A DNA stretch of 64,000 nucleotides, taken from assembly GCA_015178975.1 (NCBI GenBank), contig WHVD01000032.1, positions 682,001 to 746,000 on the forward strand, read 5' to 3'. Position 1 is the first letter of the stretch. Each line of letters begins with the position of its first letter. Below are positions 4,562-31,529 of the stretch, in pieces. A program made the translations under genes and the position numbers. This DNA comes from Hysterangium stoloniferum. Taxonomy: Eukaryota > Basidiomycota > Agaricomycetes > Hysterangiales > Hysterangiaceae. The notes beneath the pieces were generated by a model, which ran no database searches, was not told where the DNA came from, and was given only the letters and a program-made list of their open reading frames with translations.

Positions 4562-7165
4562 TCATTCCTCTCTCAATTCCTCCATCTTATCAAACCATGC
4601 CCTCCTAAACCTTCCACTATTCACACTAATATCAGTCTCTTCGCTAAAATCTCCATTTTTGACCAGCTTCTTCAACAGAATCGAAAAATCATCCCTCAAC
4701 GCTTTAACCTCACCAATTAAATCCTCCATTCTTTCCTCCATTTTCGACATCCTTTCACCGATCGATTTCATTTCTTTTTCCAACTGGTTATCCGACTGAT
4801 GTTCTGACCTTCTCGACCGTCTAGAAAAATTCAACATTCTCGACATGATGTTACAATGACTATTTTTCCTTTGCCCAAGCTTTCGAATCTCTGGACTACC
4901 ATTTTCGTTTTCGTCTTCCAATTCTTCGATCATGTTTCAACTCTTTTTTCCATTTTGACGCGGTTTTGTGATGTATTAGCCTTATTTTAATACTATTTTC
5001 CAAAAAAGGAGTCCAATGCTCTATCAAAATGTGCAAATACTCAATTTACTGCAAGGTAAAATAATTTAAGTATTTGATATTAATCAGTGGCAGCCTAAAT
5101 AGACTTAGAACCCCTGAAGTCAAGAGTTTACTTGAATATATGCACCCTACTTCGCAAAGAAGGTTTTGAGAGCTGCTTGTACAAGCTTGTTATTTTTCTG
5201 TAAAAACACTACTAAAATATGAATAACAATTCACTGATTCAGAATTTCGATTCTAGCTAGTTTATATATATTTTATACTATTTATCAAACAGTAAAAATA
5301 TTTATAAACAGGTCAAAAGATTAGATATAGAATAAAACACTATTTGGCTAATATATGCTTTATTTACACTAACCTACAGGGTCTACTGTGATACTAACTT
5401 ATCAGGATCTTAATGTAGTCTTAAGGATTCTGCAAGGATATTCTCAGTATTTGTTTATGTGAATATGCTTTACTGATTCACAATAAATGAACAAAGGAAC
5501 GGGATTATTTGCAATGTAATAAACAGTCAAATTACTCAACTAGAGGTGACTGAAGTTTTAGACTACAAATAACAATGTAAAGAAAACTAATAATCGGTAC
5601 TCAATTAAGAGATGACTATAGTATAAAGGATTAATACCAGAAGCTCAACAAGAGGTGGCAGGGAATCCTGATTGGTCAGAAGAGTGACCAGGGGTAGGAT
5701 TATTGTCAAAAGCTCAACAAGAGGTGACAAAGGGATCCTGAGATAACTTAGGTCAGCAGCTCAACTAGAGGTGACTAAGTATTTGTATTTATTTGTCCAA
5801 CAGCCCAACTAGGGGTGGAATAACTGCTTGCTGCAGTGGCACACTGATGTGGCTGATAAAATGTAGTAAAGATTTTGATTGATTATTATTCAAGGCTGGA
5901 GCTGAGCTCCTTATATACATTTTGGTCTGAGACATTTAGAAGATTCTAGAAGATTGAATGATGTCATTCTGGAAGGAATGATGTCATTTAGAATTTTCTA
6001 GAATTTTCTAGAGCATAGTGGAAGGTTCTAACTACTTCTAAGACACTATAGAATATTCTTGGCATAATAGAACTTACTGGAATCTTATAGAATATTCTAC
6101 AATATTCTATCTATTATTAGTACCTATTAACTACTATTGCTTTAGCAGCCACTGGAATGTTCCAGAGATTTCCGGTTTTTGCTGTAGTAGCATATATGAT
6201 TATATAATGCTCTCGCACCTGTGCACACACATGACATCCTTCGCATCTTGTGACTGTCACGCGTTGTGACAGTTGTGCGCCTTTGTGACAGTTGCATGCC
6301 TCTGTGACTGTCGCGTGCCTCTGTGACCGTGGCCGGCTTTATATTATTATAATTATTATAATTATTTTTAGTTAGTTATAAATATAATATTTTATTATAA
6401 TAATATAAATATATATATTACCTTGATTATGCGCGATTATTTCACATCACGATTTGTCGGCGTCGGAGTTTGAAATGTCATGTGAATATCACATGATTAC
6501 TCGCGTGTTGTGAATAAGCGCTGAGTCGCTGACATATTAATCAAAAAAGAATAAAAAGTAGAAATTCAATAACCTGCTCAATTTATTAGATAAAAATACA
6601 AAATAAATTGTATAAATTCAAGATAAATCAAACAAATATTGTACAATTTAATCGTCGCAATATAATTACATTTGAATATTTGTTTTCGCAATTTGTTAGG
6701 GGAAATTGTTTAAAAATCAGAAAAAAGCTAAAAATACATAACAGGTTTTCCAGCTGGCCTATTTACAGTCCAATAACACGCCCGATGCAACCAATTGCAC
6801 CGATCGCAATTCGACGACGCATTAGTTTTCCTACACACAAAATTCGTGTTAAAACACATTGTGCAACTGGAAAAAACAAATTAGCAAAATTTGACAAAAA
6901 TTTGACAAAACCGAAAAATTACGAATTTTCCGATTTTGCTTCAAATTCCCATTGCATCCCAATTCCCTTACAAGTTGCCTTATTGAACGGTTCTTCGCAG
7001 TCTTCTATCCGCTTTTTGGGAATTTCTTCTAAAAAATAACTAATTAACTAATTTTAAAGAAATCCCAGAAATCAACTTACCAACCGCATTAACAACCATA
7101 TCTCTATCCTCGAAACCCAAAAACTCGGATCCTGATTTGAGTTGGTCAACTTCTATATCAGACAT
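4562..7165 (-). pseudogene. Antisense spliced Zn2Cys6 protein gene of Gypsy A
   Basis: This is a gene on the strand opposite pol, between pol and the 3' LTR. I read exons 7081-7165, 6923-7028 and 6866 down to 6744, continuing at 4961-4562 once element G1 and one TSD are removed. Both introns are GT-AG (52 and 56 nt); the second has a CTAAT branch-like site. The joined frame is 238 codons with a single internal TGA (CGA expected). It encodes a perfect binuclear zinc cluster, C-x2-C-x6-C-x8-C-x2-C-x6-C (CTMCFNTNFVC ... CDRCNWLHRAC), then basic residues and a charged coiled coil (EKEMKSIGERMSKMEERMED). Zn2Cys6 domains are fungal DNA-binding domains; a regulatory role is inference. The start ATG lies about 80 bp inside the 3' LTR boundary. 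Confidence 0.75.
4967..6743. mobile_element. G1: 1.78-kb TG...CA element nested in the antisense gene of A
   Basis: The ends are TGTGATGTATT and AATACATAACA, an 11-bp imperfect inverted pair, flanked by the TSD GGTTT (4962-4966, 6744-6748). Removing it plus one TSD restores the zinc-cluster frame exactly. It has no convincing ORF, is AT-rich, and carries several copies of an AGCTCAACTAGAGGTGAC-like unit (5.53-5.83 kb) and a run of GTGACNGT units (about 6247-6335). It could be a very long solo LTR or a non-autonomous LTR element. Confidence 0.75.
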
Positions 7166-8346: not shown

Positions 8347-8462
8347 GTACCCTCCCTTTATGCCAAATCCCAAAGAGGCTCTAGAACTTGATAAAGTTTG
8401 TTGGTTATGCACATGTGTCAAAGAGTCACATGATCTGGAAGGTAAGGTTCAGACATGACAAG

Positions 8463-8474
8463 CCTATATAAAAA
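8463..8474 (+). promoter_or_regulatory. TATA box of antisense gene B1
   Basis: CCTATATAAAA lies about 50 bp upstream of the ATG at 8520. The same box at the same distance, with the same TTCTTCTTTATTACCCCCATC leader, is present before the B2 copy (23959-23970). Conservation in two copies supports a real promoter in the element. Confidence 0.65.
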
Positions 8475-8519
8475 ATCAAAAAATCAAAATTTCTTCTTCT
8501 TTATTACCCCCATCATCAA

Positions 8520-9459
8520 ATGGGTCCAAAGCCAATGCTGTACAGACCAATGCCTGCTGCTGGGCCCTCCACAGGCTCCACTCACCACTGCCCAAATCCT
8601 GGTGCAGCAGGAGGAGCAGCACCAACAATGAGAGGAGGTGGAGAGAAAGGCCAAGGAGGCCAAGGAGGAGTTGGATAGGGAGTACCAGGTGGCACTGGTC
8701 ACAGAGAAAGAGGCTGAGGAGCAAAGGAAGAAGGATGAGGAGGAGGCTGCGTGGGTTGCCATGGAACAAGCCAAGGCAGCTGCAGAGAGAGCTGTGGCTG
8801 TCGTGGGAAAGGTAAGTCCCAATGATTTGTGTGGTCAGCCTTACTGACTCTGCTCTTAGCACAAAGCAGTAGAGGCTGAGTCGGAGTCTGAGGGGGAGCT
8901 GGAGAGTCCCCAAAAGGTAAGTCTCTGGTCTGTGGGGTTTTCTGGGGACTGACCATGTCAACAGAAGGCAAGGAAAGTGGCTCCAGTTCACCTACAGGTG
9001 AAAAATGACCTGCGGTGTTCTGGTTGTAACAACCGGAACACTGAATGTCATTGGAAGTCCGGGCAGGGACTAGGCTGTTGGCAATGTGTGCACCTCAAAG
9101 CGAGGTGCTCATTTGTTCACGAGCCCATGGGGTCTGTGGCATTGGATGCGAGTGGGTTGGACAAGCCTATGGGCTTGGAGGAGGTCTTGGGGTGGATAGC
9201 CACAGGCATAGAGGCCCAAAACCAGTTGCTTGAAGAGAGCAACCAAATGCAGGAGACCATGGTGAAAACACTCCAGGAGCTCCATGAGAAGTTCTGGGTA
9301 TTCTTGGCAGAGTATGGTGGTTATGTGTATGCTGAACCACAGATCGGAAGTTCCGAGGAGTCTGGCTCGGATGAGGATGGGGTCCCCACAGAGATAGCAG
9401 AGCTCCCAAAGGAGCTTGCTGAGGTTGGGCAGAAGCATAGCCCCATAAATGTAGATTGA
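8520..9459 (+). pseudogene. Antisense spliced Zn2Cys6 protein gene of Gypsy B (copy B1)
   Basis: This lies between the pol end and the 3' LTR of a B copy, antisense to pol. The ATG is at 8520. Introns are 8812-8859 and 8917-8964 (both 48 nt, GTAAGT donors, phase 0), and the last exon runs 8965-9459. Exon 1 encodes a charged helix rich in Glu/Lys/Ala; exon 3 has an intact C-x2-C-x6-C-x9-C-x2-C-x6-C cluster (CSGCNNRNTEC, CWQC, ARC) followed by helical sequence and an acidic Ser/Asp/Glu tail (SSEESGSDEDG). Exon 1 has a frameshift and a TGA near 8636 where copy B2 keeps CGA (Arg), so this copy is broken. Zn2Cys6 proteins are usually fungal transcription factors; function here is inferred. Confidence 0.75.
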
Positions 9460-9669
9460 AAATAAAATAATAAAATTTTAATAGTTTTTTTTTTTTTTTG
9501 ATAAAGTGAAAACCTGAAACATAAAAAGTGAAACATAAAAAGAGTCTGCAGGAAGGTCCACTAGGACTTGTCGAAAACCTGTAAAAGCAAAGAGAGACAT
9601 ATGTAGGGCAACAGGGAAAAATGAAAATGAATCCAACATAACATAGGGTCTGTGGAGTGCAGCCAGAGA

Positions 9670-10157
9670 GAGGATAGTGGTCTGGGTTTGAGTGGTAAGC
9701 TGTGTGAAAGTCAGTAACAATCTCTGTGGCATTACCGAGTTCCATGGCCAAAATCCATGAAGTCTCTTTGTCAGTGCCCTCGTAACCCACTCACTTGACC
9801 AAGTAAAGCAATTTACAAGTGCATCAACAGTTATCTATTTTCGAATCTAAAATTTGTGAGATTTCAAACTCAGGTTCTCCATCAATAATGACTGGAGGAG
9901 GTGGAGATTGCATGTGATCTGGGATAGTGTTAACAGTACAAGGTTCTAGCATAGAAACATGAAATACTGGGTGTACAATGCACATGCTATCTGGAAGCTG
10001 TAGGGTCCATGAAACTGAACCTACTTGTGCTATTATTTCAAATGGACTTAAATATTTTTCAGCAAGTTTCTTTGATGGACAGGTAGTCTGAAAGAATTGA
10101 GCTTTGACAAAGATGTGATCACCAATTTTGAAGTTGGGTGGTGGAATCTGGTTTTTT
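9670..10157 (-). pseudogene. Gypsy B1 pol remnant: integrase C-terminus and chromodomain
   Basis: The minus-strand frame contains NFKIGDHIFVKAQFFQTT, KKLAEKYLSPFEIIAQVGS and the start of the chromodomain, closely matching the complete B element at 25209-25700. The coding sequence stops at about 10157, where unrelated sequence beginning TGTTAGGACAACACTAAC follows. The rest of this pol is not found nearby. A run of T's (about 9484-9499) separates it from the antisense gene. Confidence 0.78.
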
Positions 10158-13300: not shown

Positions 13301-16300
13301 TTAGATTCGATAAATAGTCTTGTAAGCTCTGAGAAGAGTGGGGGCATTACAAAGGTTATTGCCATTTAACCAAGTGTCCTCTTCCGATCCATATCCTTTC
13401 CATCAAACTTGGAAAAGGAGTCGATTTCAATTCTTTTTGTGTCCTACTATAGCCTCTACTTCGTACTCCTCGTCATTATGGTCTAGTTCCCGAGGATTTT
13501 CGAGTAGTGCCCTTGATCTGAATTCCTTGGGGGAAAGATGGTACTTTTTAAGATGGTCTCGGTTGATCACTGGGTGTATTTGATATTCTGAGGGAATGCG
13601 GAGTTGAAAGACTTGAGGATTGATCTTCTCCAAGACTTTGAACGGTCCTATCCATCTTTGTATAAGTTTCCTCCCTGGTCCTTTGGCTTTGACAAGCTCG
13701 AGAGAATGGGGATTGATTAGAACATAATCTCCTTCTGAGATATATTCCACCAATCTCCTTTTCTTATTGTAGCTGTGAGCTTGCATTTCTTGTGCTTGCG
13801 CAATCAAATCCCATGCCACCTGTTGATGGTTCTCCAATTCTAAGATCCATTGGTCAGCTAAGGGGCTATCCAACAATTCCCTGGGAACCATGGGGTCATC
13901 CCCTCCTAGACAGCAAGACATTCCTCTCGGTAAGTATCCCATCAGCAAAAAGGCTGGTGCGTAGCTCATTGAACTCTGAACCGTCAAATTGTAGGTATGG
14001 GCCACCACTTGAGTCCATTTAGACAATTCCTCTTTCGAAGAAGTGCAGTATGCTCTGAGCATTTGCTCAATGAGAGCATTGACATTTTCCATTTGACTGT
14101 CAGTTTGAGGATGATGGGACAAGGATACTGTGAGGGCACTTCCATATACCTTGCAGACCTCTCTCCAGAACCTCCACAAAGATTCGTGCAAATCCTTCTG
14201 CAGATAGATCTGAGGTTGTGGGCTCACAAATTAAAAAAAGCATGAGTTTATTCACAGCGACAAAGATGGCTGAGCAAGCACCCTCTGCAGAAGGTGGCAA
14301 TCCAGTAATCAGGTCCATTGAGACAACCTCAAATGCCCTTAAGGGTACATCTGCAGGTCGAAGAGCTCCTTGTCGAGTGGAATGATCAACCTTAGTTTTC
14401 TGGCATATGTCACAACTGCAAGCATATACCACACAGTCCTGCAACATCCTTGGCCAGAAAAACCCATCCTTCATCAGCTGAAAAAGTCTGTGACTGCCTG
14501 TATGAGCTCCTTCGAAGGGGTTGTCATGTATCAATTTGAGTATGGTTGACGTCATGCTGCTAGGTATGCATATTTGACTTTTCCAGTCTGAATCTCGAAA
14601 GAACAATAGCTTATTCTTGCCGATGAAATAGTGCAAAGGGGTAGCTACCATATTTGGGGAAATGGGATCTGGCGGTGTAATGATTTCTGAAGGTGGGATC
14701 TTTCTGATATCCATCACGAAGTTCCTTAGCATAATTCTCATCGATTTCTATAAGCAATTGGGGTTTCAAGAGAGTAAAGTTTGCCTTGTTGATTTCATTG
14801 TTTCTGGGGAGGTTGTGCAAATCCCATTTCATTTGGGGGACCTCTTCCATCGTTCCAATTGGTTCAACTAACTCGTGATGAGTGAGAAAGATGGCCTTTT
14901 CCACTGGTTTGTTCTCCCATAATGTCTCATTGTCATTCCAGTTGTAAGAATCTGCTACGATTGGTAAGAGGTTGTCTCTTGTGGGACTAGTGCAGTCAGG
15001 TACTCAAGGGAGTCTAGACAGTGGGTCAACATTGCTGTGTATCCATCCCACTCAATGTAGGATTTCCAGACCAGGGTATGCAGCGTATACCGTCCCCCAT
15101 GTGGCCAGTTGACAATTGGTATTCTTGTAAGATCTGGCCCATTGTAACGCCACATGGTCAGTGATCAGAAGGATATATTCTCCCTCGATAAAGGGCTGGA
15201 AATGGACTAGTCCCTCCTTAGTAGCTAATGCCTCTCGCTCTGTGGCTGAGTAATTACATTCTGCTTTCTTGAGCGTGCGGCTCCAAAGGCGATGACGTGC
15301 TCAACAGTGACACTGGTGTCGTCAAAATCTGAGGCCCAGGAATCCGTCCAAGTGAATTCCGGCTCCTTGGTTTTATAATGAGTGACGAAAATGGGCATGT
15401 CTCGAGATTGATCGAAGGCTGATCTTGCTTGGGCATAGATTTTGGTATCTTTTAGATCCTTGAGCATCATTTTCTGTATTTGTTGGAAACAACATCCCAG
15501 CACAAAGTCTGAAGCATCCGTGTATAGCCGATAAGGCATACCACTCATGGGGTGTCTGAGTACTGGAGCAGAGCTCAACGCAACCTTGATGTCTTCAAAA
15601 GCTCAGGCATGTTCAGAATCCCAAGTCCAACAGACTCCTTTCTTTAAGAGGTTGAAGAGCGGAGCAACCGTCCAGGAATAAAATGGTATGTAGGTGGAGA
15701 AGTACAGAACCATCCTGAGGAAACATTGAAGATCTGCTATCTTGGTAGGTGTAGCTAGCTCTAGTATGGCAGTGACCTTTTCTTGATGGGTCGAAAAGCT
15801 GAGTCTAGACACCTTATATCCTAGTAATAGAATCAAGTTATACCCAACATAGCACTTTTTGGGTGAGAGAGTGATTCCTGCTGCAATTATGGCTTGTAGG
15901 ACCTGGTCTAAATGCTCTAAATGATCATCCCATGTCTTAGAAAAGATCACAATGTCGTCAATATAAACTAGGCAGAATATCCATAAGTAAGGTGTGAGTA
16001 CAGTTTGCATAACTCTCTGGAATATAGAGGGTCCATTATGAAGTCCAAAGGGCATTCTCCTGAATTGCCACAGTCCTCAATGGGATCTGAAGGTGGTCTT
16101 CAGTTTGTCTTCTTCTAACATTTTGAGTTGGGTAAAGCCAGCTAACGCGTCAAAGGAAGATAGGACATTGGATCCTGAAAGCACTTGCATGATTTCAGAC
16201 TGGTGTGGCAACAGGAATTTGTCAGGAACTGTTAGGCTATTCAACTTCCTATAGTCAATCACCACTTGTGGTTTCCCATTGTGATAGACAACAAAGGCTG

Positions 16301-16943
16301 GTGCCCCCCAAGGACTTTTGGACGGTTTGATTACTCCCTGTTGAAACCAAGTATCCATTTGTTCATCAATGACCTTCCTATTGGCTGGGGAAGTTGGAAA
16401 CATTGGCATCGAAATAGGTTGCATGCCTTCTTTCAATGGGACATTGACTTTGACGTCTACTTGTCCTAAACACCCATCTACTCCAAAGGCTTGGATGTTC
16501 TTAGTCAATACCAACTCCAAGTGAGAGGAGACGTCAGTAGGAATATCAGGTCCTAAGTTAACCAACTTATGTAGGTCCTCCACATGAAATGTTTCCATGG
16601 TGGCAACCTCTGACATTTTAGGGCCTGCTGGGTTGAAATCGTCTGTGAGTTCCCATTCTGGGGGCTGTCCGGAAGGTTGAAGGTTAAGGACACACTCCTC
16701 TTCTATTCTTGATAGGTTCTCTACGAGGTGAGCGATCTTGGTTGCCATTGACTGCATTGATGCCTTCTCAGTTGGAGATCTAGGTGTCTGAGCCCATTTG
16801 TTCGCATCGTGAATTAATCCAATGGTTTCCCCTCATCTAATGATTCTTGGTGTCAGAGAGAGGTTAGTGAGAGGTATCGTGGCGCATTCCCTAGAGGTAG
16901 CAGTGGTGGGAGCAGCTAGTATACTTCCATTGTCATTCTGCAA
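13301..16943 (-). pseudogene. Gypsy C pol: RT, RNase H, integrase, chromodomain
   Basis: Read on the minus strand: RT with QGVIKPSKSPWGAPAFVV, VIDYRKLNSLT, RMPFGLHNGPSIF and the catalytic VYIDDIVIF; RNase H (YRLYTDASDFVLGCCF); integrase zinc region (HTGSHRLFQL ... CSCDICQKTK); core (VSMDLITGLPPS, and HHPQTDSQMENVN with the catalytic Glu region); GPFKVL; chromodomain (WKGYGSEEDTWLNG) ending at the stop at 13301. Several TGA codons stand where arginine or tryptophan is expected, and the RNase H to integrase stretch is frameshifted. Upstream it continues across LTR D into the protease at 17675-18171. Confidence 0.9.
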
Positions 16944-18551: not shown

Positions 18552-21321
18552 TAATGTTGTTGGCAGAATGCTGCCATTCTGCCGAATTCTGCCAACTGCC
18601 GGCAGTAGCCTGGCTACTGCCAGGGGGGTGCTGGCAGAATTTGGCAGAAAAATGTGGCTGTGTCCTTATTGTCCTGATCGTACGACAATTTGAGAATAAA
18701 AAATTGTAAATCCTATCCTCTATGTCTGGTTAAAAGCAGCCTACCATCGTCACTGACAACTTTACTGTTCTCGAGAAAAAGAAGGATAAATCTGGGTGAT
18801 ACTGGTTGCTGTGTAAACATTGTGGTCCCGACAGTGATCACATTCAGAACCGTGACAACAACCATATCAAGCATCTTGCTGATCCCAAGAAATGCCCCAA
18901 TGCATCTTCAGATATCCGTAAACAAGCCTTAACCTTTTTGGCAGGCAAAAATGCTGCAGAGTCATTGATTATGACTGCTGGATCTACAAGTTTGTATTTA
19001 GAGAAGCTCTTGGTTCTCACCATTGTAATGTTACACGTAACAACAGGTGATGCGATGTTTGTCCCCATCAAGAAACGTAGGTCTGGAACACTGGCAGGGA
19101 TGGTTGATTACCCACTCTTGGAAGAGCAACAAAAGCGGGCAAATATGAAACTATTCCGGTCCGTTGTTCCATCCTAAATGCCCTTCTGTGAGCTCATTGA
19201 ATGACTCAGGTTTGTGGTCCATGCGAATGTCGCATTTTCCATTGCCGAGAACTGGTTTTTCCGAGATTTCCTTAATGAGCTTCGGCCATTGTACGAGACT
19301 CCCAGCTGCTACATCTTATCACACTCCATAATGGATGCTGAGGCTGCAAGAGTAGAGTTAGAGGAGATCGAATACATGAGGAATAGGAAAATGCTGACTC
19401 TACTGATTGATGGATGGGAGGATATTCTCAAACGAAGTCTCTATGGATGTGTTGGAGCCGAAGTTGGGCAATATCCTTCGGTTCTGAGCCTGACAAACAT
19501 GACTGGCACTCGGGGAACAGCTGACAATATCATGGCAGCTGCACAGGGTGTGATGAAGACAATGCAGCTGGAAGATGGTCAGAACTTCATTGCAGTGACA
19601 ACTGATAATCCATCAGTCATGCAGGCTTTTCGTTCCAAGTGCCAAGAAAAGTACTTTTGGGTTCTCGTAAGAAAATTTGCAGTGTATTGATATTAGTAAT
19701 TCACAAGTCATTTCATTACAGGCATTTGCATGCTTTCTGCATCAGATGAACACGATCATCGGTGAAATCTGTGCCTTCCCTTCAATGAAGCAAATCATCA
19801 AGCAGGCAAATCGTGTGGTCACCTTTTTCAATAGCTCCCATTATTGGGGTGGTCAGCTGAAGGAAGAGGCCAAAAAATGCCATGTCAACCGAGGTTTGAA
19901 GAAGAATTGTGAGACAAGATTTTACGCACTCTCACTCCAAGCCCAGAGTGTGCAGTCGAACAGGCATGTTGATCAATTGAATACTTTATCCTTGTCAAAT
20001 TAAATGTAGTCCAGGACACCACTCTCACATACCTGTCTTCGGCCTGATGCCCAGAAGAAAGAGAAAGGCTTATCTCCTGTTGCGGCTGATGTTGTGGAGA
20101 CTGTGCTTCGTGACCGAGATTTCTGGCCCTGTTTGAACCAGCTAATCAGAGTAATCAAGCCTCTCGTTGATGCCATTGGGAATGTTGAATCCCGAGATGC
20201 ATTGCTGGCTGATTGCATGCTGGAACTTATCCGTTGTGCACAAGCGATGCTTCGTGTGGCCACAGAAGAGGGAGATGATGCTGCATTCTTGTTGCATGCA
20301 TGGACTGTGTTCAACCGTCGCTTCCACTCGATGAACATGAATATCCATTCACTTGCCCTTTTTCTTCATCCTCTATGCCGAAAGCTTGCCATCAATGAAG
20401 CAGCAAAAGGCCGGTCACTCCAGTTTATGGTCGACACTGCTCTTGGTCTTGCAAAGCAATGGAGATGGAGCAAGGAGCAGGCAACCCGGCTTGCAGCCGA
20501 TGTCAAGCACTATTATCAGAGCAAAGCACCATTTACAGGTGGTGGAAATGACGGTCTTGATTGGTGGCGACATCTTGCCGTGAACGTAGACATTCATCCA
20601 TTGAAGAAGCTTGCAATCCGTATCTTATCAATTGTTCCTCATGCGGGCGAAGTTGAATGACTGTTTTCTGCTCTTGGTGGTACACAAACCTGCAAACATT
20701 GTAATCTCTCAGTTTCGACATTCGAGACTCTTGGAAAACTTCGCGCTAACTATTGCCGACACCTATATGAATGAGATCGCCTGGCTGGGAAGACTACGCA
20801 TCGTTGCCATGCCCATATGCATACCCGAGATCAATCCGGTATCAATGCAGACCTTGTCAATGACCTTGACAAGACATTTACGTGGAAGCCACCCTTTTCG
20901 ACAGCTGAGGATGACGAAGATGTTTTAGCTGGGCCAGAAGACATTTCCCTGGATGAATTTGATACTGCCTTTGACGAGCTAGACAAAACCATCGAAGCTG
21001 AACACAGGGGTGAGGAGTTTCTACCAGGAGAGGGGATTCTCAATGGGAAGGTTTATGACTTTGAAGAACTAGCTAAAGTTGATAATGGCGAAGTTCCAAC
21101 CCTCGTTGTGGATAATATGGATGTCATCGGAACAGCAGATGATGATGACTGGGACATATTAGCTGTAGGGAGGCTGTAATCAGTTGTGTAATCGTCACTG
21201 AGCATGTAGGATTCTTGTTTAACCCTAAAATCTTTCTGCCCGATTCTGCCCCACCTGGCAGTTGCCGTTCTGCCGGCAGAATGGCAGAAATTTTCCAAAA
21301 ACAATTCTGCCACCCACACTA
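18552..21321 (+). mobile_element. hAT-superfamily transposon, copy 1 (2,770 bp)
   Basis: The ends are TAATGTTGTTGGCAGAAT and, inverted, TAGTGTGGGTGGCAGAAT, an 18-bp imperfect terminal inverted repeat. About 100 bp of subterminal GGCAGAA/TTCTGCC hexamers follow at both ends, typical transposase-binding arrays. The flanking octamers differ (ATGACATA left, CACAGCGT right). Copy 2 at 49996-52765 has the complementary mismatch, so the flanks were exchanged by inversion. It encodes a BED/hAT transposase. Confidence 0.92.
18722..21179 (+). pseudogene. hAT transposase (copy 1)
   Basis: The frame starts at the ATG at 18722 and is joined over introns 19667-19721 and 19968-20009. An N-terminal BED-like zinc finger (LCKHCGPDSDH ... 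HIKHL) would bind the ends. The core contains LTLLIDGWEDILKRSLYG and FIAVTTDNPSVMQAFR (DUF659-like) and FLHQMNTIIGEI. A hATC dimerisation region follows (HPLKKLAIRILSIVPHAGEVE, then LFSALGG after a TGA), with an acidic tail. Premature stops: TAA in codon 4 (copy 2 has CGA), TGA at 18797, TAA near 19175, TGA at 19202, 20658 and 20773. All but the first are shared with copy 2. It would act in the nucleus by cut-and-paste; it is inactive as it stands. Confidence 0.85.
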
Positions 21322-23006: not shown

Positions 23007-23810
23007 TGTTAGGGTATGTACACAGCAGGTTTCTGGAGAAATCTGTGGGATATCCAGTAGGACTTGGCTTCAGCTTATAGGCTGCATCCTCATGAGATCG
23101 TATTGTCCAATTTCAGACAGGCAGATAGAAATCCCGGGGAGTCTGGGTAGGGTTCGTGGGTTGAGGGGTCGTAGGTTGGAGGTCATGGGTCGAGAGGTTG
23201 GAAGTCAAGATAAATAAGAGAGATACATGCATCGGAGCCCGTGGGCTCTGACTAGTGCGAGAGGTGTAATTCAAGTAGGAGTTTAGAGTGGAAAATGTAT
23301 TAGATTACTGGGGGGAATCTAAGCCAATTTTCTGACTGGATTGTATGTACAACATCTGCCAGACTATATAGACCGTGGAATGAATGACATACCAAATCCA
23401 GTAATGATGAAATGAAACTAGCAAAACATAAAACAAGAATAGTAGACACCACATTTGGTGTTAGGAACGGGACGGAATGGAGTGGAGTCCAAATCATGAC
23501 AAATCATAAACCATAACGGGAAACAGAGTGGGAGTGGAGTCCGAATCGTGACAGGTCATTTGACTAAAACAGGAATGGGCTCTGTTAGAGGAATGATGGG
23601 TTTTCTGAGTGGGACCCAGTGACTGATGTGTGGGACAGAGTCAGACATAGAGGGATGGAGTCTGGTGGGTATTCCGGTGACTGATACACGACGTAATGAA
23701 GTTGAACATAGACAAGTCTGATGTACAGAGTCCAGTGGGAATTCCAGTAAACTGACAATTGGTGTGTATAAGTTAGTACCTGGAGTCCAGCGGGAATTCC
23801 AGTCATAACA
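23007..23810 (-). repeat. 3' LTR of Gypsy B2
   Basis: This is an 804-bp terminal repeat, TGTTAGGGTA...GTCATAACA. It contains the GGACTTGGCTTCAGCTTAT motif at 23061-23078. Confidence 0.95.
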
Positions 23811-23958
23811 GTACCCTCCCTTTATGCTGAAGTCCCAAAGAGGCTCTAGACCTCGATAAGGTTCTTGTCAGCTACGTGCATGTGTCAAAAGTCATGTTGG
23901 TTACATGTATGTGTCAGAGAGTCATGTGATCTGGAAGGTAAGGTTCAGATGCGATGAG

Positions 23959-23970
23959 CCTATATAAAAT
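23959..23970 (+). promoter_or_regulatory. TATA box of antisense gene B2
   Basis: CCTATATAAAAT lies about 50 bp before the ATG at 24021 and matches the B1 copy in sequence and spacing. Confidence 0.65.
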
Positions 23971-24020
23971 TTTGAAAAAATGAAAATTTCTTCTTCTTTA
24001 TTACCCCCATCTTCGACATC

Positions 24021-25010
24021 ATGGGACCAAAACCAATGCTGCGAAGGCCATTGCTGACCGCCGGGCCCTCCATGGGCAATCAATACCAGGTGCCTCTTAC
24101 TGCTGCCCAAATTTTGGCACAGTGGGAGGAACAACACCGACAGCGAGAGGAGGCGGAAAAAAAGCCAGGGAGGTCGAGGAGGCCCTAGATAGGGAATACC
24201 AGGTGGCTGTGGCTGTGGAGAAAGCAGCAGAGGAGAAGAGGAAGAAGGATGAGGGGGAGGCTGCATGGATTGCCGCGGAGAAAGCCTGGGTGGCTGTGGA
24301 GAGGGCTGCAGTTGTCACGGGCAAAGTAAGTCCCAAAATTTTTAACTTGTCATTTTTCTTTTGACTGACTTGTCATTTTCAGCACAAGGTGACAGAGGTG
24401 GAGTTGGAGTCTGAGGGGAGCCGGAGAGCCCCCACAAGGTGAGTCTCGGTCTGTGGGATCTGTGTGGTAACTAACCAAATCAACAGAAGGCAAGGAAGGC
24501 AGCACCAGTCCGCCTACTGATGTGGAATGACCTGTGGTGTTCCAGTTGCAATGACTGGAACACAGAGTGTAATCAGAAGTCCAGGCAGGGACCAGGTTGC
24601 TACCAGTGTGTGCCAAGGTGAGGTGCTCGCTTGTCCACGAGCAACCCATGGGGTCCGGAGTGTGGGATATTAGTGGGACAGATGGGTATTCTGGTTTGGA
24701 AGAGGTCTTGGGATGGAGCACCAAGGGCATTGAGGCCCAGAATGAGTTGCTCCGGAAGAGCAACAAGGTCCACATCGTCATGGTGAATGATCTCTGCAAG
24801 CTCTGCTTGGAACATTTCAAGTTCCTAGTGGAGTATGGCAGCTATGTCTATGAGGAGCTGCAGGCCGGGAGTTCCAAGGATGCCGGGTCAGATGAGGACG
24901 GGGTGCCTGCGGAAGTAGCGGAGCTACCTGAGGAGATGGCAGAGGTGGGAAAAAAGGAGGTGGAGAAAAAGGAGGTGGGGAAAAAGCACAGTCCCATAAA
25001 TGTAGACTGA
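24021..25010 (+). pseudogene. Antisense spliced Zn2Cys6 protein gene of Gypsy B (copy B2)
   Basis: It has the same plan as copy B1: ATG at 24021, a charged helical exon 1 (EEQHRQREEAE, EKAAEEKRKKDEGEA), an intron near 24327-24381 with GTAAGT donor, a second GTGAGT intron ending at 24486, then the cluster exon. The first half of the cluster is kept (CSSCNDWNTEC) and CYQC follows, but a net 4-base loss near 24610 breaks the frame before the last cysteine. A one-base shift lies in exon 1 near 24160. The tail is acidic (SSKDAGSDEDG) and ends HSPINVD like copy B1. A third remnant is at 1-253. Confidence 0.75.
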
Positions 25011-25208: not shown

Positions 25209-28200
25209 TCAGAGAGATGATAGTGGTCTGGGTTTGAGTGGGTAAGCTGTGTGAAAGTCAGTAACAATTTCCATGGCATTACCGAGTTCTGTGGCCAAGA
25301 TCCATGAAGTCTCTTCATCAGTGCCCTCATAACCCGCCCACTTGACCAAGTAAAGCAGTTTACAAGTGCGTCGACGCTTGTCAATTTTTGAATCTAAAAT
25401 TTGTGAGATTTCAAACTCGGGTTCTCCATCAATAATGACCGGAGGGGGCGGAGATCGCATGTGATCCGGGAGAGTGTTAGCAGTACAAGGTTCTAACATA
25501 GAAATATGAAATACTGGGTGTACCGTGTGCATGCGCATGCTATCCGGAAGCTGTAGGGTCCAAGAGACTGAACCTACTTGTGTGATAATTTCAAATGGAC
25601 CTAAATATTTTTCAGCAAGCTTTTTTGATGGATGGGTAGTCCAGAAGAATTGAGCTTTGACAAAAACACGATCGCCAATCTTGAAGTTGGGTGGTGGAAT
25701 CTGGTGTTTGTCCGCTGAATGTTGGTATTGCTCTTGGGTGGACTTTATTGCAGTCTGGAGTTCCTTGTGGAGGTCCGTGGTGAACTCTTGAGTGTGAGCA
25801 GAGGCAAGATTTTGTTCTGGATGTACTGTAATATTTGGATTATATCCTTTATTTGCAAAGAACGGGGAAACACCAGTAGTGGCCGAGGGTGCATGGTTGT
25901 AAGCAAATTCTGCAAGTGGTAACAAGGATTTCCAATTGTCCTGTTGATAATTGCAATATACACACATGGAGATATTGTTCCAATGTCTGGTTGATGTGTT
26001 CGGTTTGTCCATCGCCTTCCGGGTGATGTCCAGATGTGAAATGTAGTTTCATGTCCAAGGATTTCCTGAGGGATCTAAAGAAGTGAGATACAAACTCTGA
26101 TTCTCGGTTGGAAGTTACATGGGACGGAACTCCGTACTTGGAAAATATGTGGATAATAAAAAGTTCCACTAACTGCATGGATGTAATTGTATCATATGTA
26201 GGGATGAATATACCTTGTTTTGAAAATCTGTCAACAATGACTAGAATGGCGGAAAAGCCTTTGGAATCCGGTAGGTGTTCAATGAAATCCATAGAGATAG
26301 AACTCCACAGGTGTTCTGGTACCAGGAGTTGTTTCAAAAGGCCATATGGCTTGTGTCACTGAGATTTCGAGCAGGAACAAGTAGTGCAAGATTTACAATA
26401 GTGCTTAATAAATCCTCAGAGTCAGGGCCAAGTATATTCTCTTCTTATTAATGATAGAGTTTTGTTGTACCCGAAATGTCTGGAGAGTGGGTGATCATGT
26501 TTATACTGAAGGATCCTGAGGCAGAGGCCGTTGGAGTCTGGTACATACATAGATACGATCGTCAAGTCTAATGAAACTATGCTGATCAAGAGACCACTGG
26601 GGTTGATTGGGGTCCACGGGATTGTCAAGGTGAGCTTTAGTTATCAGGTCTAGTGGAATTGCCGATAGAATATCTTGATGTAGCTTCTCAATATCCATAA
26701 TGATAATTCCACGGACAATGGGATTGATGAGGAAAGTTGCGTGGACTGATGCGGTAAGTTGCTGATTCGTGAAAATAGGTTTCAGGTTGTGCGGGTTTAC
26801 CATGGCATAGTCGTTGCTCCCCTCTTTAGGATAAACGTCCCATCATCTAGTTAAAGTGTCAGGTTTGCCACTGAGATGGCCAGGTCGAAAACGGATAGTC
26901 ATATTGAAGGTGGATAGATTTCAGACTAGCAGGCCTGCCGACAGGTCAAAAGTTTTGTAGTAGAAAAGTATTATGATCTGTTACAACGTCAATCGGAGTT
27001 CCCGAGCCTTCCAAATAGTGTTGCCACATTTTGAAAGCTGAAAAGATTGCTAGGAGTTTCTTATCATGAACATTGTAATTGAGCTCTGCTCTGGTAAAAG
27101 TCCAGGACAGAAAACCCACAGGGTGGACTTCTCCATCGGAGTCCTGGATAGACAGAATGGCTCCAAGTGCATAGTCCGAGGTATCTGTTTCAACAATGAG
27201 CAGGAGGTCCGGTTTCCAATGTGACAAAATAGGAGCTGAAGAAAAAGAATTTTTAAAAAGATTGAAAGCTTTTTGACACTTATCGTTAAAATTCCACAGA
27301 GTATCCTTATGCATAAGATGGGTAAGGGGAACCATGATGTTTGAATATCTGCAGATAAACTGTCTGTAAAAATTGGCAAAGCCGAGGAGGGATTGTATAT
27401 CTTTAACTTTTCGGGGTTCAGGCCAATCTTTGATGACTTGCACTTTAGTTTCGTCCATGTGGAGTCCATTGGGTCCCATTATGAAACCCAGGTATTCCAC
27501 AGAGTCTGTGTCAAAAGGACATTTTTTGCCCTTTGTGAATAAACCTCCGGAGAACTTCATGGACTTGTTTGTCATGTTCCGTGGGATTCTCGGAGTAGAT
27601 AAGAATGTCATCCAAGTAAACAATGATGCATACATCGAGCATGTCAGAGAAAATGTCATTGATAAAATGTTGAAAAACAGATGGAGCATTGGTGAGTCCA
27701 AAGGGCATCACCAACCACTCAAAGGCCCATAGTGGGTTCTAAAAGTGGTTTTCCATTCATCACCCACAGAGATCCAGACCAAGTGATAGGCGTGTTTGAG
27801 ATCTATTTTGGTGTAAATCTGGGCATTCTGTGGGGCATTGAGCAGATCAGATATACATAAGTGGAAGTGGATACTTAACCTTTTTGGTGACAGCATTGAG
27901 TCCTCTGAAATCAACACATAGTCTAAGGGATCCATCCTTTTTTCTGACAAACAGAACAGGTGCTCCAAAAGGAGACTTTGAGGGTCTGATAAAACCCATG
28001 GACAAATGTTCATCCAGGAAATCATGGATTGCGGAAAGTTCCATGGACGAGAGTGGGTAAATATGTCCTAGGGGTGGCTGGGTGCCTTCTTCGAGATTGA
28101 TTTTTAAGTCATATTCTCTGTGGGGTGGAACCCAGTCAGCTTTCCGCTTGCTAAAAACATCCGCGAAGTCAAGATATTTCTCTGGGACACCTTCTAGGTC

Positions 28201-28895
28201 AGTGGCTTGCTCAGATGCAGATACTGGGTTGAAAAATGACCAGTTGCTTCATCAATTTTTAAGTTGATAGTGAATGCCTGGGACCCATCCATTTTTGTAG
28301 CCCTAATAAAAGCTGCAGCATTGATCAGAGAAATAGACAGAGGTGCTGTGGGTTCCGGGGAAGCCATGGGTGCCGTAGGGATCACAGGAGTCCTCGAGAC
28401 TGCAGGTGCTGGGAAGGCCATGGGTGCCGTGGAGGCCATGTCGGGCACAGTTTCCTCAGCTGCTGTGGGGGTCCAGAATGTTATACTGTTAGCTATCCAG
28501 TCAATCAATGGATTGTAGTGGGTAAGCCAGTTGTGTTCTAGGACCACTGAGCAACTTGAGTCTAACTGGGTCACATAGAAAGTGACCAATTGAGATGTTC
28601 CACATGGGAAACAGATGGATAAATCACAAGCTTGGGTAACAACTGAATTACTTGTGCCATTGAAGAGGTGGAGGCTGATGGGATTTATTGGATAAGTTGA
28701 CAACAAATTTTTTTGCGTGAATTTTGTATCTAAAAAACAATGAGTTGAGCCAGAATCTACAAGAGCTGAAAAAACAAATTTCAGAATCATATTAGACATA
28801 AGTTTAATGAAAAATGAATCAGAATGCGAAAGAGCGGATGCATTGAGACAGGTAAACTCTTGAATGTGCAGAGAGGCAATGCAACCCCAACCCAT
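25209..28895 (-). pseudogene. Gypsy B2 pol: protease, RT, RNase H, integrase, chromodomain
   Basis: Read on the minus strand: retropepsin SALVDSGSTHCFLD with VLEHNWLTHYNPLIDW; RT with [45 protein letters not shown] and the catalytic VYLDDILIY; RNase H (VETDTSDYALGAIL, ELNYNVHDKKLLAI); integrase core ([31 protein letters not shown]); GPFEIITQVGS; chromodomain (LVKWAGYEGTDEETSWILATELG). It is broken by several frameshifts and TGA stops, but every domain is present in the usual Ty3/Gypsy order. Confidence 0.93.
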
Positions 28896-28899
28896 GTGG

Positions 28900-30079
28900 A
28901 GTCTGCGGGGTTGCTTACTCTTTTTTCAAGTCGGAAGCCAGTTTGTCCTTTGATGGGGTTTCCATGGAGGTCTTGGCTGTTCGACCCTTTGCAGAGTTTG
29001 CTTTTGCCAGCAGACATTCCGGGACTCAATGACTGGGTTTTCCACACAAGAGACAGAGGTTATTGTCTATATGATGTTGTCTTACCTGTGGGGTCAATTT
29101 GCCATCAGGTCCGAGTTTGCCTGTGAGGTCTGGTTTTCCGGTCTGCTTGCTGGACTGTTGACCTTTGTTGTTATTGTTGTTGTTGTTGTTAGAAGACTTT
29201 TTATTGTTCTTCTTGTCGGATTGCATGGAGTTCTGGTTGCTGGTCGACGAGTTGTTGTTGTTGGTTTTATTGGCCATGGACTTGTTCACTTTGTCCATGG
29301 AGGTCTCACGGGCAACTTCCACGTGACGTTCCCAATAACGTGCGTCCGTGTTTTGAGCTTTGAGGCGCATACGGGACAGGGTTTTTGGCTTGCCATCTTC
29401 TCCTTTCGAGACTTCGTCTTTAAGGTGGGATGGCAGACCAGCATAGAATTGGTGGCAGAGAGCGGGATTGCCCCACTGAAAATGAGCTGCAAGATTATTG
29501 AATTGGATGATGTAGTCCATGATGCACTGCGTGTCCTTCATATGAAGATTTGTGAGACTGTTCTCGGCTTCTCCTGTTGGGTCATATGGGCCAAAGTTGG
29601 TTTCAAGCTCCATAACAAAAGCATCCCAATCTTCCAGCCAAAGCGGCTCTTCCTCGGAACGTCCACTAAAAGCCAGTTCGAACCATTTCAACGCGGATCC
29701 TGACAAGTATGAAAGTGTGTAGTTGACTTTTCAGGTGACCGCGGGGGTCCGGATCTTTCTTTTTGCCTTCTCCGAGCATATGATTCATCAATCTTTCTAA
29801 AGTGATTGCTAAATACTCAGAGGTGGGATCTGAAAGCGGCAGTCAATCGCTGGACGGAGGATTTTCGACACCTTTGCCCTTGTCAGGGGCCACGGACTTG
29901 TCCTCGTGCTCGGATTTGTCCTGGTTTTCCAGGACTTCTTTGATACGGGCTTCTTCCATGGCTTCTGACTGGTTCATGAGTGTCTGGCTGGTACACAAAG
30001 TTAACAGGGAATGAAGAGTTGACGGTCCAGGTAATGATGCCTGTGCATGCGCTCTTCTTCTTGGTGGCATATTGAACAA
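28900..30079 (-). pseudogene. Gypsy B2 gag
   Basis: It starts MPPRRRAHAQASLPGPSTLH at 30079, 25 bp inside the 5' LTR. The capsid region is open at 29706-29026 (SALKWFELAFSG, HQFYAGLPSHLKDEVSK). It is followed by a polyasparagine/Ser/Lys tract (29155-29260) and a zinc knuckle CLLCGKPSH-x-VPEC in which x is TGA (CGA expected) near 29028. An early frame break lies near 29850. The knuckle is normally the RNA-packaging element. Confidence 0.85.
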
Positions 30080-30104
30080 TCTGCGAGTCTTAGTCAGAAA
30101 ATAC

Positions 30105-31403
30105 TGTTAGGGTACATACACGGCAGGTTTCCAGAGAAAACTGCAGGATATCTGGTAGGACTTGGCTTCAGCTTATAGGCTGCACCCTCGCAAGATTGTG
30201 TTGTCCAATTTCAGACAGGCAGATGGAAATCCTGGGGAGTCCGGGTGGGGTTCATGGGTCGAGGGGTCGTAGGTCAGAGGTTGTGGGTCAAGAGGTCGGG
30301 AGTCGAGATAAATAAAGGAGATAGATGTGTCAGAGCCCATGGGCTCCGACTAGTGTGAGTGGTGTAATTCAAGTAGGAGTTTATGGAAAATGTATATTAG
30401 ATTACTGGGGGGAATCTAAGCCAATTTTCTGACTGGATTGTATGTACAACATCTGCCAGACTATATAGACCGTGGAATGAATGACATGCCAAATCCAGTA
30501 ATGATGAAATGAAACTAGCAAAACATAAAATGAGAATAGTAAACACCAAATTTGGTGTTAGGAATGGGACAGAATGGAGTGGAGTCTGAATTGTGACAAA
30601 TCATAAACCATAATGGGAAATGGAGTGGGAGCGGAGTCCGAATTGTGACAGGTCATTTGACTAAAATGGGAATGGGCTCTGTTAGAGGGATGATGGGTTT
30701 TCCGAGCAGGGTCTGGTTGTGAGGAGTATGCTTTTACCACAGTATCATTGTGGTAAAACACTCCTTTTATTTCATTTATATTTTACATATTCTATTCATA
30801 TTTTTCTATCTTTCATATTCTTCGAATATTTCATATTTCATTAGTTCGAAGCATTGTGTATACTTGTGGGTGCACTCAGCACCAATTAGAACTCAGACAC
30901 ACTTTAACCCAAGAACCACCACTCGTAAGACATAAACTAGGTCTACTACGAGCGGTGATCAGGGTAACGTGTCAGCTACCACTTAGGTAGCATTATCTGA
31001 ACTACTGAACACTTCTGGCCTCGAACTGTAATAGTCGAGGCCTCCACTCAAACCATTGCACTCATTGACTCCTTCGTCATCTTGTGCTCTTTCTCTCACT
31101 TTCTCTTATATTGCACCGAATAGGTCAATATTCTTCCTTTCTACTCATTTCTTTGTATATAGAACGGTCAGAACTTCTGCCACTCTTCACACTGGTGACT
31201 GATGTGTGGGACAGAGTCAGACATAGAGGGACGGAGTCCAGTGGGTATTCCAGTGACTGATACATGACATAATGAAGTCGAATGTAGACAAGTCTGACGT
31301 ATGGAGTCTGGCAGGAATTCCAGTAAACTGACAATTGGTGCATATAGGGTGCGGGTGCGTATAAGTTAGTGCCTGGAGTCCAGCGGGAATTCCAGTCGTA
31401 ACA
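30105..31403 (-). repeat. 5' LTR of Gypsy B2, interrupted by solo LTR C
   Basis: It starts TGTTAGGGTACATAC and ends GTCGTAACA, matching 23007-23810 except for the insert at 30718-31191. Confidence 0.93.
30718..31191 (+). repeat. Solo LTR C inside LTR B
   Basis: It begins TGTGAGGAGT and ends CTCTTCACA; 474 bp. The TSD is CTGGT at 30713-30717 and 31192-31196. It is related to the 5' LTR of Gypsy C at 45243-46319. Confidence 0.93.
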
Positions 31404-31529
31404 GAAAGGACAAACACAAATGGTCCATGGCTGAGGTGAAACAAACCAAAAAGCTGCTTGCTGGAGTTAAGACTAAGCAAGCTGTGATCTACACAGGCAC
31501 TGCTGAAATTGACATTCTTGAAGCATTTA
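31404..31529 (+). pseudogene. Gypsy E gag, middle fragment
   Basis: This continues gag E in frame from 23006 (DKHKWSMAEVKQTKK ... EIDILEAF) to the Tc1 insertion at a TA. Removing Tc1 and one TA joins it to YAYDLWAEI at 33140. Confidence 0.8.

Follow-up and report, generated by a model that had tools for sequence, protein, structure and literature searches.

The window analysed here is a 64,000-nucleotide stretch of the genome of the truffle-like fungus Hysterangium stoloniferum that contains two copies, B1 and B2, of a gene encoded antisense to the gag and pol genes of a Gypsy retrotransposon family (family B). It corresponds to C246:682001-746000 in an assembly of 111 Mb and 554 contigs. In B1, a remnant of the region between LTR and start codon (8348..8519, + strand; 87% identity to the matching stretch of a young copy described below) contains the complement of the polypurine tract and a putative promoter, with the TATA box TATATAAA at 8465. 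Exon 1 (8520..8811, +) encodes an Ala/Glu-rich, charged and helix-prone segment; at 292 nt it is frameshifted, and it also has in-frame stops. It is followed by intron 1 (8812..8859, +; 48 nt, GT-AG, branch-like CTGAC at 8844), exon 2 (8860..8916, +; 57 nt, encoding an acidic/Ser stretch) and intron 2 (8917..8964, +; 48 nt, GT-AG, CTGAC at 8949). Exon 3 (8965..9459, +) is open and encodes a six-cysteine cluster with the spacing C-x2-C-x6-C-x9-C-x2-C-x6-C (first Cys codon at 9016), a long helix-prone stretch and an acidic tail ending in HSPINVD before the stop. A remnant of the pol C-terminus, with integrase end and chromodomain, lies convergent with the gene (9664..10156, − strand; 86% DNA identity to the young copy).

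B2 includes a partly matched 3′ LTR (23007..23764, −), an LTR-to-ATG region with TATATAAA at 23961 (23812..24018, +) and the antisense gene itself (24021..25010, +). The three exons of B2 (24021-24325, 24383-24438 and 24487-25010) all have disturbed frames and lengths that are not divisible by 3. A decayed pol (25209..29104, −) ends 198 nt from the stop of the antisense gene and is accompanied by a decayed gag (28915..30088, −) and a 5′ LTR (30105..31404, −) with an interruption of ~480 nt at 30718-31193. B1 and B2 are both decayed copies.

An earlier, sequence-only reading of this DNA had proposed antisense copies at 8520-9459 and 24021-25010, a TATATAAA box about 50 bp before the ATG and two introns at equal positions. 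The exons could be located in both copies, the box lies 55 bp before the ATG at 8520 in B1 and 60 bp before the ATG at 24021 in B2, and the two genes have a common three-exon layout in which all introns are GT...AG. The proposed six-cysteine cluster and HSPINVD tail are both present in B1; B2 has the same tail, but its cluster breaks after the fifth cysteine. A third tail remnant, placed by the same reading at 1-253, was not recovered, as this segment showed no similarity to the gene by DNA or by protein (best tblastn E 0.30). A B-like pol end is present at 373-892 (74% DNA identity), which is the right place for an adjoining gene tail at 1-253.

The window also contains an antisense gene of a second family, family A (6728..7165, −; exons 7165-7081, 7028-6923 and 6866-6728), which has lost its tail and encodes a C-x2-C-x6-C-x8-C-x2-C-x6-C cluster. 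Near B1, reverse transcriptase and integrase pieces at 13427-16832 belong, by eye, to a different-looking Gypsy lineage. A further repeat is present as two inverted copies, 99% identical, at 18552-21321 and 49996-52765. Neither of its two ORFs has a Pfam match, and we take it to be a hAT-like DNA transposon on the basis of the 8-bp duplication rule. The 8-bp target duplications of the two copies are crossed, with ATGACATA and ACGCTGTG each matching across the far pair (8/8), a pattern that recombination between the repeats would produce by inverting the 28.7 kb at 21322-49995. One repeat copy is inserted in a B-type LTR, and B2 lies within the inverted part.

Searching the genome with B1 exon 3 returned 150 scored matches with E <1e-57 among 1135 first-look candidates. 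We identified a young copy of family B (locus L031), a natural copy and not a reconstruction, whose two LTRs are 100% identical over 822 nt and whose target-site duplication, read by eye, is GCTGA in the orientation of the gene. Open frames encode gag (438 aa) and pol (1304 aa), and the antisense gene is open as well, with three phase-0 exons encoding 294 aa. In the coordinates of this locus, the gene (1687-2669, +) starts 209 nt from the edge of the 3′ LTR (656-1477) and reads toward the pol end (2881, −). The element has above-cut-off Pfam matches to Retrotrans_gag, RVP_2, RVT_1, RT_RNaseH, Integrase_H2C2, rve and Chromo, and is a chromodomain Ty3/Gypsy element (chromovirus). An SH3 domain like that of Tf2-1 is also present. 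Inspection by eye of the sequence adjoining the 5′ LTR on its inner side gave no tRNA-like primer site; the primer-site region contains 11 nt complementary to the LTR ~33 nt after the LTR TATA, as in self-primed (Tf1-like) elements. The exon-3 protein is identical in 19 of 150 scored copies (the query copy counted), and 110 of the 150 have no stop.

The association of the gene with pol was assessed by comparing the best 150 of 1341 exon-3 candidates, found with the young copy as query, with the best 150 of 3333 pol C-terminal candidates. The two sets yield 111 pairs in which pol is always on the opposite strand (gap 195-232 nt, median 214 nt between match ends); none of these pairs has a same-strand pol neighbour. 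Among the 39 gene copies without a listed pol, 27 (20 + 7) were checked, and pol is present in the DNA at 27/27. Overall, opposite-strand downstream pol was found at 138/138 loci examined among the 150 best young-copy matches. The 30 best matches to B1 also all have pol, in the standard opposite-strand, downstream layout in 27 cases; at the other three (L002, L017 and L019) pol is nearby in another place or orientation, and the loci look rearranged. These counts bear out the view of the sequence-only reading that the gene is a stable part of the element and not a chance capture. A host gene found mostly outside Gypsy elements would have contradicted that view, and Gypsy pol stands at every copy examined.

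Conversely, 10 of the 39 unpaired pols were inspected, and seven have the gene, in one case with exon 3 interrupted by an insertion, while three have lost most of it, including the cluster. The gene is thus present in 118 of 121 pol copies examined among the best 150 pols (111 paired plus seven of the 10 inspected). That copies lacking most of the gene exist implies that it is not strictly needed in cis. The LTR sequence of one gene-deleted copy is 99.4% like that of the youngest copy, so loss of the gene is no bar to recent insertion, perhaps because its product acts in trans. Two B-type loci, L065 (C2:325300-327200) and L066 (C212:641200-643000), have most of the antisense gene deleted and retain LTR and pol pieces 96-100% like the young copy; they are possible users of the antisense protein in trans.

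Substitution patterns show that the antisense frame is the coding one and is under purifying selection. For 889 pairs among 43 copies, the gene frame has a median dN/dS of 0.19; at the pol 3′ end it is 0.21 (23 copies). Four of the five other frames have values of 0.99-1.48, and the fifth, codon-mirrored frame has 0.27 but a mean of 2.9 stops per copy. The gene frame has 15 stops in total (in 13 of 43 copies); the other frames have means of 1.9-8.6 per copy. Because old copies lose CpG, we reran the selection test with transversions only. The pooled ratio is then 0.35 for the gene (bootstrap 0.25-0.49) and 0.23 for pol. Of the wrong gene frames, four have ratios of 1.31-1.47 and the mirrored one a ratio of 0.52. 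Purifying selection on the gene frame extends across deep subfamilies, in a sample of copies that were fetched by exon similarity, which favours conserved ones.

Sequence signals of the gene are also retained. The sequence-only reading had suggested cysteine conservation as a check, and across 43 copies 254 of 258 cysteine cells are kept, with the spacing of a Zn(II)2Cys6 cluster. Mean conservation of the cysteines is 0.984, compared to 0.798 elsewhere in the exon (P 0.0016). The four splice dinucleotides are kept in 37/38, 40/41, 41/42 and 41/42 aligned copies, with intron interiors at 0.76-0.78 conservation. Two frames of 339-341 codons seemed intronless and were considered as spliced retrocopies that would prove splicing; we rejected them, as both copies still contain the introns, which happen to be in frame. 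An exact TATATAAA occurs in 32 of 35 copies, and of seven segments compared by local alignment, the LTR-to-ATG stretch is on average the most similar to the young copy (mean identity 93.3%). The conservation of TATATAAA suggests that the gene has its own antisense promoter.

The family B protein (~294 aa) contains an Ala/Glu-rich helix-prone stretch, a nuclear-signal-like KKARK stretch, the six cysteines, a long helix and an acidic tail. Zn(II)2Cys6 clusters have the general spacing C-x2-C-x6-C-x5/12-C-x2-C-x6/8-C. The Zn2Cys6 label given by the sequence-only reading agrees with this spacing, but Pfam matches to Zn_clus (PF00172) remain below the cut-off of 21 bits (14.5 for B1 and 10.1 for the young copy). 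PF00172 is nevertheless the only Pfam family matched, if weakly, by all 9 family B members (E up to 5; best E 0.0015; 10.2 bits for the first member). For family A, it is absent from the table of the first member and is not one of the 25 families, of 31 in all, that were listed. A genome scan with PF00172 gave 42 matches of 83 candidates, none of which, by eye, is among the listed B gene copies. The scan also showed two match clusters outside the B gene lists, C56:27459-45410 (within 18 kb) and C115:74483-75050 (within 0.6 kb), that are possible tandem zinc-cluster genes.

A structure model run on two sequences has a mean pLDDT of 48.4, with the cysteine region below 50 and one helix alone confident, and profile searches of the PDB returned nothing better than E 0.07. 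Protein searches with family B found two Hysterangium stoloniferum proteins and nothing else (in one search, the best 7996 word-sharing candidates were scored); family A had no homologue among the best 7996 word-sharing candidates scored. One of the two proteins, P0002, matches the genome at 98% over residues 1-112. The database relatives are therefore probably from the same species or near kin, and uninformative on how widely the gene is spread.

We identified 108 family A matches among 114 candidates in the genome and read 20 loci. In 17 of these, pol is on the opposite strand and downstream; L037, L039 and L045 have no significant pol match. The six cysteines are present in 20/20 loci, a count biased by the use of the cysteine exon as query. 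The family A protein (~242 aa) has an acidic N-terminus, the C-x2-C-x6-C-x8-C-x2-C-x6-C cluster, a basic stretch, a long helix-prone stretch and an acidic tail. The sequence-only reading had described families A and B as having the same architecture with divergent proteins. The general layout is shared and the diverged protein keeps the cluster, but intron phases differ (1 and 2 in two A copies read, 0 and 0 in B), and TATATAAA is absent from the LTR-ATG gap of the three A copies inspected. Integrase ends of A and B are 58-67% identical in most longer matches. When the antisense proteins of A and B are aligned with hhalign, only the cysteine cluster and a few following residues match (E 0.0022, probability 12.8%), which is suggestive only of a common origin.

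The sequence-only reading had asked whether the antisense gene and the reverse transcriptase co-evolve, and we addressed this with pol. Gene and pol distances are strongly correlated (28 copies; Mantel r 0.878, with 0/5000 permutations as high). Gene and pol trees of 26 copies have 11 of 23 internal splits in common, with many branches weakly supported. Starred branches of the two trees do not contradict each other by eye, and there is one moderate conflict, between a gene-tree group without L012 (100/99) and a pol-tree group without L008 (85/83).

Summed internal branches come to 0.840 for the gene vs 0.254 for pol, and terminal branches to 2.085 vs 1.730. With terminal sums close and internal sums far apart, gene and pol decay alike after insertion, but in lineages that keep moving the gene seems to evolve roughly three times as fast as pol. 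When the young copy is compared with B2 and L036, pol is the slow part, and the gene, the LTR and the gag N-terminus have diverged faster. At transversions, divergence rises about three-fold or more close to the ATG and falls back ~100 nt past the stop (26-44 copies; the final segment distances omit six copies chosen for near-identical pol and mask misaligned stretches). Synonymous and intron sites of the gene are also elevated, so the pattern is not simply one of positive selection. Cassette swapping or recombination was first suspected and is a possible cause of the fast gene, although the gag N-terminus and the LTR evolve quickly as well.

The LTR of the young copy contains CGG-N3-CCG at 5 places, 4 of them upstream of the LTR TATA; three are exactly CGGACTCCG. 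Motif cores in the LTR have a conservation of 0.976 vs 0.918 in random LTR windows (P 0.038). A shuffle test of the motif was clear for one LTR, mixed for a second and gave no signal in the older B2 LTR, and CGG-N3-CCG is also found elsewhere in the element. None of the three family A LTRs read contains it. The repeated CGGACTCCG sites are candidate targets of the antisense protein, a lead and not proof. Family A LTRs (e.g. L040) have TCGA/GTCGAA-type repeats in place of the CGG motifs, with 13 TCGA in 560 nt, mildly above shuffles. Across 41 family B LTRs, CpG sites are 0.75 conserved relative to the young copy, compared to 0.92 for non-CpG sites, a strong loss suggesting DNA methylation of the elements.

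The antisense gene of human T-cell leukaemia virus, HTLV-1 HBZ, starts near the 3′ LTR and encodes a nuclear bZIP regulator. HBZ and the Hysterangium gene are alike in layout; this is an analogy only, between a bZIP gene of a vertebrate virus and a zinc-cluster-like one, and we do not claim homology. The HTLV antisense promoter is inside the 3′ LTR (PMC7264820). Among LTR retrotransposons, genes placed antisense between pol and the 3′ LTR are termed aORF-3R and include maize Grande gene23, rice RIRE2, Silene Retand ORF4 and bean PvRetro13 (PMC7264820). Their products have no clear similarity to other proteins, except for an SMC domain in PvRetro13 and a transposase-28 domain in Retand, and a 2020 review stated that the role of LTR-retrotransposon antisense genes is unknown (PMC7264820). 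Grande gene23 has its own promoter and encodes a nuclear protein (PMC7264820). The gene brtn is described as an extra antisense gene of Boty-like retrotransposons in Botrytis cinerea (Zhao et al. 2011, cited in PMC8365987; PMC7264820). Both brtn and the Hysterangium gene are extra antisense genes of fungal retrotransposons, the host of brtn being an ascomycete.

By position and conservation, the Hysterangium gene is of the aORF-3R kind, as judged from its sequence. Like the plant genes, it runs antisense to gag-pol in the interval from pol to the 3′ LTR, is present in most copies and is conserved like the other proteins of its element. It differs from them in protein type and introns: it encodes a zinc-cluster-like domain with six cysteines, is interrupted by two small introns, resides in a fungus and is supported by a selection test. 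It resembles Gal4-type Zn(II)2Cys6 regulators (PF00172) in its C-x2-C-x6-C-x8/9-C-x2-C-x6-C spacing, nearby helix and acidic stretch. It is unlike them in its sub-cut-off score, in having basic residues mainly in the second half of the cluster and in being encoded by a retrotransposon. As far as the literature was searched, what is new is its zinc-cluster-like domain, its introns and the evidence of selection; a limited search, whose outcome is not firm, found no printed basidiomycete zinc-cluster antisense gene.

We propose, with a probability of roughly one half, that the gene is an accessory antisense gene with its own TATA whose product is a nuclear DNA-binding regulator that targets the LTRs of its own subfamily in trans and most likely activates them or counters their silencing. 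The copies compared show a coding antisense frame that is under purifying selection, keeps its splice sites, TATA and six cysteines, and travels with pol. Integrated copies would make an antisense pre-mRNA from which both introns are spliced out. On the opposite strand, the introns would escape splicing of the genomic gag-pol RNA, which would explain how a gene with introns persists through reverse transcription. Once in the nucleus, the protein would bind DNA as a dimer, paired by its long helix, and act on LTRs of its own subfamily, with CGGACTCCG sites upstream of the LTR TATA as candidate binding targets. Gene-deleted copies whose LTR and pol are near-young are consistent with such action in trans. 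We more tentatively suggest that the gene is the element's own intron-containing zinc-cluster transcription factor, and that regulator and LTR co-diversify into subfamily-specific pairs. In line with such pairs, families A and B keep the cysteine cluster and differ elsewhere and in the LTR, and among the more divergent copies compared the gene, LTR and gag N-terminus evolve fast while pol is slow.

The same product could instead be a self-limiting repressor that controls copy number, in which case antisense transcription through the pol end, convergent with pol, would add to silencing. The gene does converge on pol at a short distance, read-through would yield antisense pol RNA, and gene-deleted copies with near-young LTR or pol are expected if a copy benefits from losing a repressor. 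Frequent loss would be expected of a repressor harmful to its own copy, yet nearly all pol copies examined have the gene, whose frame evolves under purifying selection throughout the deep subfamilies; we regard this reading as unlikely. We also consider it rather improbable that the protein is a structural or replication accessory factor that acts on the integration complex, for example in nuclear import or target choice, and not on transcription. The integrase ends in a chromodomain, plant antisense ORFs have been proposed to be retroviral-accessory-like and Grande GENE23 is nuclear (PMC7264820). Against this, a separate antisense unit offers no obvious packaging route, and the acidic tail and zinc-cluster layout would better fit a transcription regulator.

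Two further explanations are opposed by the selection and linkage data. The antisense RNA might be what counts, with an incidental open frame, or a sense-strand open frame might be the real gene. We tried and rejected the latter: a 214-codon sense frame is open across exon 3 in one young copy, but over the 43 copies it has a dN/dS of 0.99 and a mean of 1.9 stops per copy. Low dN/dS combined with few stops occurs in the antisense frame alone, making either version very improbable. Least probable of all is that a few Gypsy copies recently took up a host transcription-factor gene. Fungal genomes commonly encode zinc-cluster regulators, and this one has its 42 PF00172 matches. No listed gene copy is among those matches, however, pol is beside every copy examined (138/138, and 30/30 B1-like loci with 27 in the standard layout) and gene and pol distances correlate.

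The accessory regulator reading suggests a reason for the antisense placement itself, since opposite-strand introns would not be spliced out of the RNA that is replicated. With a candidate DNA-binding module, young open copies, two related families and candidate LTR sites, the Hysterangium elements would make the idea that such a gene regulates its own LTR testable in a fungus.
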